From IMG/VR virus record IMGVR_UViG_3300042544_001456, positions 1 through 64,000 of that record: a stretch of DNA of 64,000 nucleotides; one strand, written 5' to 3'. This document shows positions 7,468 to 22,008 of this stretch, piece by piece. The first letter of the stretch is position 1; each line of letters opens with the position of its first letter. The DNA is from a virus. The notes under the pieces were generated by a model, which was given only the letters and a program-made list of their open reading frames with translations, made no database searches and had not been told where the DNA came from. A program made the translations under genes and the position numbers.

Positions 7468-7860
7468 TTAGGCAATAGCAGTCAGTACAATGTAGTCGTT
7501 TGAGCTATCGTTTTCTAAGACCCAGGTATATCTATTTCCGGAAAAATCAGTAGCAACACGCTTTGTAATTTTTCTAATGTTAATTTGTGTTCCGGAGTTT
7601 GTATTTAAAAATCCAAACATTCTCATTTCATTTGCAGCATTAGGTGTACTGTTTTGTAATACGTAATAATCATATGTAGAACTAGTACCAATAGTTCCAA
7701 CGCGAGTGCATTGGAATGTTTTTGCACCACGTTGCTTGAGAATTACTCCGTCAGTTCTTAAAGAACCGTCATACAATTCTACTCTAATACCAGTGTTTGA
7801 ACTTGCATATGTACCAATAGCATCAATACCAAGTACATCTTTTCTTAGTGGACGTCCCAT
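7468..7860 (-). CDS. Small virion protein, first gene of the fibre operon
   Basis: 130 residues, beginning MGRPLRKDVLGIDAIGTY. This start, with ILKQRGAKTFQ in the middle, is familiar from small structural proteins of T4-like marine phages; I know no defined function. The protein is predicted beta-rich with Ser/Thr/Asn-rich loops. It is the first gene behind the late promoter at 7942-7949 and has a strong AAGGAG ribosome site. It starts the run of structural genes that continues past the left window edge. Confidence 0.6.
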   Translation of the reverse strand: MGRPLRKDVLGIDAIGTYASSNTGIRVELYDGSLRTDGVILKQRGAKTFQCTRVGTIGTSSTYDYYVLQNSTPNAANEMRMFGFLNTNSGTQINIRKITKRVATDFSGNRYTWVLENDSSNDYIVLTAIA

Positions 7861-7941
7861 TGTTTTCTCCTTAATTGACGTTCTAGGTCTACGCGGTGGG
7901 TTTCCGCATAAAGTACACCATACAGCATACTCTCGACATAG

Positions 7942-7980: not shown

Positions 7981-8005
7981 AATAATCCGCACAAGGCGGA
8001 TTATT
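7981..8005 (-). terminator. Intrinsic terminator after the small-gene pair
   Basis: AATAATCCGC (7981-7990) pairs perfectly with 7996-8005 around a 5-base loop. On the minus strand the stem is followed by TTATAGG after its own ATTATT end. It overlaps the stop codon of 8001-8273, so it ends that transcript just before the late promoter at 7942-7949. Confidence 0.65.
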
Positions 8006-8273
8006 TAGATAAGGTTGCTAAAAACTCTAATTTAGAGATTTTTTTAAATATCTGTTCTGCTTCTTCTTTTATTTTATTTGCTTTTTCTAAAGAACCGACA
8101 GAACGTTTTTGAAAGTGTTGCTGCATATTCTTTTGATATTGAATACGCATTTCTTCAAATGTTTTTTGTATTTTATAAATCTGGGGAGCATATCCGCGAT
8201 GCTCCTTACGCCATGTTTTTAAAGTATTCATAGAATCTTGCCAAAAGGTATCTTCTTCCACGGTAGCCCTCAA
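8001..8273 (-). CDS. Small basic/coiled-coil protein, unknown function
   Basis: 90 residues if read from the TTG at 8273, which overlaps the stop of the upstream gene as TTGA. The in-frame GTG five codons in is the alternative start. The middle is helical and charged (KIQKTFEEMRIQYQKNMQQ and EKANKIKEEAEQIFKKISK), so a coiled coil is likely. No family recognised. It is translationally coupled to 8270-8512 and ends inside an intrinsic terminator. Confidence 0.5.
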   Translation of the reverse strand: MRATVEEDTFWQDSMNTLKTWRKEHRGYAPQIYKIQKTFEEMRIQYQKNMQQHFQKRSVGSLEKANKIKEEAEQIFKKISKLEFLATLSK

Positions 8274-20929: not shown

Positions 20930-20957
20930 AAGAGAAATCCTTTAGAGTTGTTAATAT

Positions 20958-20965
20958 TATTTATA
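20958..20965 (-). promoter_or_regulatory. Late promoter, exact T4 consensus (TATAAATA)
   Basis: The minus strand reads TGTATAAATAATA, 29 bases upstream of the ATG at 20929. All eight bases match the T4 late promoter. It marks the downstream end of the structured interval. Confidence 0.75.
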
Positions 20966-20968
20966 CAA

Positions 20969-21330
20969 GATGAACTACGTTCATCTGTGTTTCGCTATCG
21001 CTCAACACATTTCTTTTCTAAATAATATTAAGCACGAAGTGAAATACTTCATGTAGATTAATCTGGTCAGACGGAACCTGTTTTAAGGTTCCGTCGTCGT
21101 TGACTTCATGTGAGTTGCACTAGCCGAGACACGGGAAGCAGGTTTTTTGTTTATACACCAACTCCAGGGACTCTAACCTTTTCCCTACCTGCGTCGACCC
21201 AGGCAATGCGTCATAAACAATACACTTTTCAATGTACTGTTTACGCTGCACTGCCTGTCTTAAGCTCGTTCCTCAATCCTTAAGTGTTTAGGAGTATGCG
21301 GTGTTTTTGAATGACAGCAATCATTCAATG
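20969..21330 (-). ncRNA. Candidate structured RNA in a 524-base gene-free block
   Basis: The whole interval 20930-21453 has no supported gene. Within it, in minus-strand order, lie helices at 21307-21328 (7 bp), 21259-21284 (6 bp), 21200-21257 (10 + 7 + 5 bp with small internal loops), 21138-21192 (6 bp enclosing AGGGA/TCCCT), 21070-21095 (9 bp), 21033-21053 (8 bp) and 20969-20985 (7 bp). At several positions the pairs are G-U if the minus strand is transcribed but A-C mismatches on the plus strand, which points to minus-strand RNA. GC is raised: 28 and 27 of 60 bases in 21121-21180 and 21181-21240. No tRNA, tmRNA or RNase P signature was convincing. 21331-21453 shows similar composition but no clear helix. 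Confidence 0.5.
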
Positions 21331-21453
21331 TCAATACTTAGAGCCTACTACCGGCAATGTCTCAACATGTCACGTGTTCGGGTATCAAGCCGACTTTTCC
21401 ACAGCGGTATTATAAACTGGCCCGCCAACCTTATGTGCTGTTTGATGTTAGCC

Positions 21454-22008
21454 TTAAATGCCTGTGCAGTTTTTTTGAAATAAATCTTTGTTTAAGGAAA
21501 AGAAATCGTCAAAGCTTGTAAATCGCCAGTAGTTGCCTGATTTATCTTGATAGTCGACGTGCCTGTAAGTTTGAAAGTCGTTTTCTTTTTGAAATAAAAC
21601 ATATCTGCCTTTACGATTAAACTTCATAAAGATAATATTAATGTCGCCTTGGTCTGCTGCTTCTAGTGTTTGTGAAATCCAACCTTCGAGTAAAGGTATG
21701 TGGCCTAAAGAAATTAATTGGTGAAACGGGAATTCCGCATAGTTTTTACACTCTGCGTTAAATTTTTTCCAGTCGTCGGGTGGAATGATGTCGCCTTTAT
21801 GGGATCTAATTTGACCTTCAGTGAGCTTATCTCGTCTATGAGCGTTTTTGCCTCCGGTAAATGCACCCGAATCAGGTACTCTAGTAAAAGAATCTTCGTA
21901 GAGTTCTGATAAGAAGTTTGCAATTTCTCTTTCAAACCCCTTCCCCTTTGTCTTGCTTTTGCTTGCCACCGCGTTTGTATCTTTCTTGCTTGTTAAGATG
22001 AGACTCAA
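21454..22008 (-). CDS. PD-(D/E)XK nuclease, Holliday-junction-resolvase-like
   Basis: 184 residues from a TTG at 22008 (GAGG just upstream); a GTG at 21969 is an alternative and would still keep the domain. The catalytic pattern is clear: GFEREIANFL with Glu26, GDIIPP with Asp73, then FNAECKNY with Glu86-x-Lys88. Between them PDSGAFTGGKN resembles the substrate loop of RecU/Hjc-type resolvases. Metal-dependent cleavage of branched DNA is the likely role. It overlaps 21932-22198 and follows gp47-gp46, so it is in a recombination operon. T4 uses the unrelated gp49 for this step; I infer that this enzyme may replace it. Alternative: a nuclease for host DNA or repair. Confidence 0.65.
   Translation of the reverse strand: MSLILTSKKDTNAVASKSKTKGKGFEREIANFLSELYEDSFTRVPDSGAFTGGKNAHRRDKLTEGQIRSHKGDIIPPDDWKKFNAECKNYAEFPFHQLISLGHIPLLEGWISQTLEAADQGDINIIFMKFNRKGRYVLFQKENDFQTYRHVDYQDKSGNYWRFTSFDDFFSLNKDLFQKNCTGI

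Follow-up and report, generated by a model that had tools for sequence, protein, structure and literature searches.

A predicted large pseudoknotted phage RNA class with a duplicated seven-nucleotide word

What does a tightly packed phage genome keep in a gap that holds no gene? The question is raised by positions 20930-21453 of the stretch analysed here, the first 64,000 nucleotides of IMG/VR virus record IMGVR_UViG_3300042544_001456 (the window). By ORF tally 96% of the window is coding, and this block, lying between a nuclease gene and a gene for a 271-aa protein, is its largest internal gap and has no supported gene. No Pfam hit was obtained among the ORFs of the block, the longest ORFs on the RNA strand of the core described below are not above the length found in shuffled sequences, and the core length falls into all three classes modulo 3 among 54 relatives. 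A first-pass annotation had described the block as gene-free within an otherwise packed genome, raised in GC and placed between the nuclease gene and a late promoter. All of this holds: the block has a GC of 0.416 and the core one of 0.451, compared with 0.351 in the window, the nuclease is of the PDDEXK_15/RusA-like kind, and the T4-type late promoter motif TATAAATA is found on the minus strand. The annotation had also named a conserved small protein as the finding that would speak against an RNA, and none was detected in the interval.

Using the nuclease as query, 34 loci were retrieved from IMG/VR, most of which keep a gene-free gap of 450-850 nt directly after the nuclease. The RNA of the window, called type A here, occurs with 100% identity in three contigs; identity is about 89-90% in L004 and, over the best stretch, about 84% in L005. 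One scan with DNA patterns returned at least 120 type-A matches, nearly all of them genuine, and with two pattern scans of at least 120 matches each the relatives of the RNA occupy well over 100 IMG/VR contigs. By BLAST, no nucleotide relatives of the type A, B, C or hybrid RNAs came up in 50,697 phage records. Two exact 31-base matches came from a MAG labelled Neomarinimicrobiota, in whose contigs the type-A RNAs L298 and L299 lie; these are probably misbinned phage contigs.

A mutual-information scan of 102 members revealed many Watson-Crick covarying pairs, and the 54-member alignment A3 (reference row window:21047-21444) yielded a model of 12 helices and 63 pairs with three pseudoknots (Table 1). 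Here 97.5% of 3347 cells are paired, compared with 31-43% in slid controls; two-sided changes are seen in 37 pairs, where the slid controls show 10-18, and in 534 cells, where they show 48-94. The covariation score of 0.453 stands against a slid maximum of 0.074. As the helices were picked on the same alignment on which they were counted, these figures favour the helices, but they lie very far above those of the slid controls. Among the cells that are not Watson-Crick, 342 are G-U and 20 are A-C (63 pairs, 54 members; 7 vs 1 in the window alone), and because G-U cells so far outnumber A-C cells the minus strand is taken as the functional one. The fold z-score is -5.95 for the minus strand (-163.9 kcal/mol) and -3.42 for the plus strand. 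The first-pass annotation had proposed a minus-strand RNA under selection, to be judged by compensatory changes in relatives and given up if covariation was lacking; covariation is present and, with the excess of G-U, it supports the proposal.

Judged from the alignment, it is very probable that positions 21048-21444 encode a large structured, pseudoknotted phage RNA of a class not described before. Phage biology would thereby gain an RNA class that is common in IMG/VR and occurs in no isolated phage among those searched. RNA position 1 corresponds to 21444 and position p to 21445-p; the covariance model R1 matches the window at 21048-21199 (-) with 145 bits. The structured RNA thus occupies the core and not the whole block for which it had been proposed. 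Of two helices singled out in the first reading, the one at 21200-21257 corresponds to P8, which covaries and varies in length, whereas the one at 21033-21053 lies mostly outside the core and is variable. The suggested alternative fold pairing TTGTTTAT with ATAAACAA is not conserved, both words occurring together in 2/54 members, and the direct repeats, the pseudoknots and the probable true 3' end had been missed. Many relatives were fetched via sequence patterns, so the invariance of GGUUCCGU, UGAC and UCUA stems partly from this selection, and the right arm of P12 likewise belonged to the search pattern. Hairpins including UUGAGCGAUAGCGAAA, located after the RNA and before the late promoter, are found again behind many RNAs of types A and B; the hairpins at 20965-21047 vary among relatives and are not part of the conserved RNA.

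Table 1. Features of the RNA locus in the window (RNA sequences are written 5' to 3' on the minus strand).
Feature	Positions	Strand	Evidence
Nuclease gene (PDDEXK_15 / RusA-like), upstream of the RNA	21454-22008	-	family assignment
Structured RNA core, about 397 nt (predicted)	21048-21444	-	54-member alignment A3, pair counts, model R1 match
P1 5' strand ACAGCA, pseudoknot with 21314-21319	21436-21441	-	two-sided changes in 4/6 pairs; 99.1% paired
P2 hairpin UGGCGG/CCGCUG	21402-21427	-	100% paired; 2 pairs with two-sided changes
P3 hairpin UCGG/CCGA	21378-21393	-	two-sided changes in 4/4 pairs
P4 helix AUGUUGA/UUGACAU, variable insert inside	21328-21368	-	two-sided changes in 3 pairs; 96.8% paired
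P5 hairpin GAAUG/CAUUC, whose loop takes part in P1	21309-21326	-	two-sided changes in 5/5 pairs
P1 3' strand UGCUGU, within the P5 hairpin loop	21314-21319	-	alignment, pair counts
P6 5' strand CUCC, pseudoknot with GGAG at 21162-21165	21291-21294	-	two-sided changes in 4/4; 100% paired
P7 hairpin with conserved GGAACGAG segment	21258-21284	-	two-sided changes in 5/5; GGAACGA invariant
P8 long variable hairpin	21202-21254	-	two-sided changes in 4/4 pairs; widely varying length
P9 pseudoknot, GAC (21193-21195) with GUU (21175-21177)	21175-21195	-	two-sided changes in 3/3; 100% paired
P10 GCAGGU/ACCUGC around P11 GGGA/UCCC	21138-21192	-	98-99% paired
P6 3' strand GGAG	21162-21165	-	alignment, pair counts
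Repeat copy 1 ACAUGAA, ACUC before	21105-21111	-	same as copy 2 in all members
P12 3' hairpin GACGGAACC..GGUUCCGUC, between the repeats	21070-21095	-	97.7% paired; G-U on RNA strand
Repeat copy 2 ACAUGAA, AUCU before; putative RNA 3' end	21048-21054	-	conservation stops here
Hairpins downstream of the RNA core, among them UUGAGCGAUAGCGAAA	20969-21035	-	blastn matches in type-B loci
T4-type late promoter motif TATAAATA of the next (271-aa) gene	20958-20965	-	motif

The 3' domain is built as ACUC-N7, a hairpin and AUCU-N7, where N7 is the same word in both copies. Ten alleles occur, and the copies are identical in 116/116 unique members in which both are present. In alignment A3 they agree in 54/54 members, while 20,000 shuffles reach at most 36, and on a tree built from the rest of the RNA 18-19 word changes are placed, each of them in both copies, with mismatches at 0/7 positions. 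After the seventh base of copy 2 the information drops from 1.26 to 0.49 bits. The nucleotides that adjoin each copy on its 5' side have kept their difference (CUC vs UCU), which makes gene conversion an unlikely cause, and as the copies nevertheless always agree we infer that one partner reads both of them. Two words that never change except together are seldom seen in evolution; they point to such a shared reader and make the partner findable. The distance from repeat to repeat is 49-67 nt with all reading frames represented, which excludes both coding and ribosome hopping across the repeats. Within the RNA no third strand was found that covaries strongly with the N7 repeats, and no complement of N7 was found in the RNA or nearby. 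Flanking phage sequence shows no consistent enrichment of the N7 reverse complement, and TTCATGT sites are scattered, so the partner, if it is a nucleic acid, may reside in the host. Pairing to tRNA anticodon loops was dropped on sequence grounds, since type-B words would need a pyrimidine at tRNA position 37.

The same 3' design is shared by type B (GGUACCG..AACCGCC), a second RNA with a different body at the same locus of other phages. ACTC precedes copy 1 in 55/76 type-B members and ATCT precedes copy 2 in 55/76, and neither flank was used in the search that found type B. With the covariance model of the type-A 3' domain, weak hits were obtained in type-B loci at the expected position (L061, E 0.005; L079, E 0.007; L012, E 0.09), and in the hybrids L219 and L312 a B-like 5' domain is joined to a type-A 3' half. 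One phage, G021 (302 kb), carries both types (L310, L311) with the words GCAUGAA and AGAUGAA, which have AUGAA in common; all other type-A virus contigs contain one RNA copy each. In the leader before type-B RNAs (L311:230-400 and the 5' ends of L011 and L014) TAGGCA/CTAACA-like tandem repeats are present in varying number, and similar words precede the type-A members L039 and L042.

Does the RNA belong to a class that is already described? The first reading could name none, and Rfam agrees: covariance models of Rfam 15 gave nothing credible at the locus at any threshold used, permissive cut-offs included, the best chance hit being mir-503 (E 0.08, far below the gathering score), and group I and group II introns, tmRNA and the other families are without a match there. 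A description of the RNA class was not found in the literature, searched mostly outside subscription papers, and the class is rated new. GOLLD is a large ornate phage RNA of unknown function with a conserved 3' and a variable 5' region (PMC12286853). The new RNA shares these traits but differs from it in sequence and structure; the GOLLD 3' end has no repeat-hairpin-repeat, and the GOLLD model (RF02032) has no match at the locus. The new RNA is not GOLLD because some carrier phages hold GOLLD at a separate locus: G001, G003 and G017, each with the new RNA or with its relative of type B, have GOLLD elsewhere. These phages thus have two ornate RNAs of unknown function within one genome. GOLLD is often reported from tRNA islands; the 64-kb window contains no tRNA, so a GOLLD-like tRNA-island setting is absent. 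GOLLD copies with a tRNA inside were seen at L318:414-876 (-), L319:412-873 (-) and L320:564-899, and one GOLLD-bearing contig carries an RNA copy identical to that of the window.

Likeness to ROOL (RF03087) lies in being a large pseudoknotted phage RNA of unknown function; ROOL was matched neither in the window by cmscan nor in 15 contigs, in which latter test the control genomes gave no match either. The vrRNA of VIPR is likewise phage-encoded, recognises nucleic acid and has an alternating GGY/NN tandem motif (PMC13142463), which is absent from the block.

How could such an RNA act? It would be transcribed with the nuclease gene and/or from a promoter of its own, and its 3' end would be the end of repeat copy 2. 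The pseudoknotted body may form a scaffold, perhaps bound by protein, from which the RNA would act in trans by offering a 7-nt word in duplicate to a single partner. This partner would most likely be a nucleic acid that base-pairs with N7, a choice favoured because many words are tolerated provided that both copies agree. We put this mechanism forward tentatively. The broader reading is slightly less likely: a new phage RNA superfamily in which 5' domains can be exchanged, and in which a re-programmable 7-nt guide word, present in two copies, serves to read one partner nucleic acid twice.

The main rival, which we regard as somewhat unlikely, takes the two N7 words and the hairpin as half-sites of a dimeric phage or host RNA-binding protein that co-evolves with the word. 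The hairpin between the sites and the constant 5' flanks ACUC and AUCU would suit a dimer, as would the limited variety of the words: position 6 is always A in type A and most words fit RSAURAW, and words that are not random suit protein recognition about as well as nucleic-acid pairing. However, words as unlike as ACAUGAA, AACUCAA and GGGAAAU would demand that the protein be retuned repeatedly, and the neighbouring nuclease switches class between GIY-YIG and PDDEXK while the design remains unchanged.

The neighbourhood of the RNA varies across the relatives. Upstream of type A a GIY-YIG gene is present at 80 loci and a PDDEXK nuclease at 5, and upstream of type B the figures are 44/66 and 11/66, respectively; the nuclease is not an obligate partner because some members follow unrelated genes. 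Downstream either late genes like the 271-aa gene of the window or a baseplate hub gene in opposite direction is found. The position in operon direction between nuclease and late gene would fit a cis element, a 3' UTR or a leader through which the adjacent late gene would be regulated at termination or translation. This is improbable, as the late gene of the window has its own promoter after the RNA, the downstream genes vary and are often antisense, and a leader would not usually be so large and pseudoknotted. Moreover, in some variants promoter motifs directly precede the RNA, namely TATAAATA in L041 and L042 and a sigma-70-like TTGACA/TATAAT pair in L039.

The arrangement of the repeats could also be read as an A-B-A' template. 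A polymerase would run from copy 2 as far as copy 1, after which its product would pair with copy 2 again, as happens in DRT10 and telomerase, or copying would go by a rolling circle as in DRT2. Direct repeats of this kind are shared with the DRT10 and DRT2 ncRNAs and with telomerase RNA, which is also pseudoknotted, and A-B-A' is the hallmark of DRT10 (PMC12632851). Strand realignment needs identity of the copies with free sequence, and copy 2 would lie at the 3' end of the RNA. A template is quite improbable, however, since the copies are about 50 nt apart with a stable hairpin between them, whereas DRT10 failed with a 20-nt spacer (PMC12632851). That no reverse transcriptase was found also counts against it: RVT_1 (PF00078) was not matched in the phage of the window, in 15 further virus contigs or in one RNA-carrying MAG, although a divergent or host enzyme may be present.

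An element of the ribozyme or splicing kind, by which the hairpin would be cut out or swapped at the two repeats, would make sense of the highly conserved unpaired segments, of repeats that bracket one hairpin and of the many homing-type GIY-YIG nucleases encoded upstream. It is quite improbable, for neither a group I or II intron nor an Rfam ribozyme is matched and the genomic position is fixed rather than mobile. A DNA element (origin, packaging or recombination site) with an incidental RNA fold is very improbable, since direct repeats around an inverted repeat do recall iteron or hairpin origins but the ratio of G-U to A-C cells and the covarying pseudoknots are signatures of RNA.

In the nearest isolated relatives a gene-poor 1.5 kb lies beside the RusA-like gene, as at L314:3667-5181 in Pseudomonas phage PA5oct; a sigma-70 promoter of consensus sequence, TTGACA-N17-TATAAT, is present in this interval, its fold z-score is -5.0 on the plus strand, and membership in the class is not claimed for it. 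At the corresponding place of Sinorhizobium phage Phosso (L316:3259-4274) 1 kb is without an annotated gene and contains a GAAGCCG repeat pair around a hairpin, which is not significant by itself. Elsewhere in the window a freshwater-2 RNA (RF02980) is matched with 55.6 bits at 7858-7930 (-), between the minus-strand ORFs 7468-7860 and 8001-8273.
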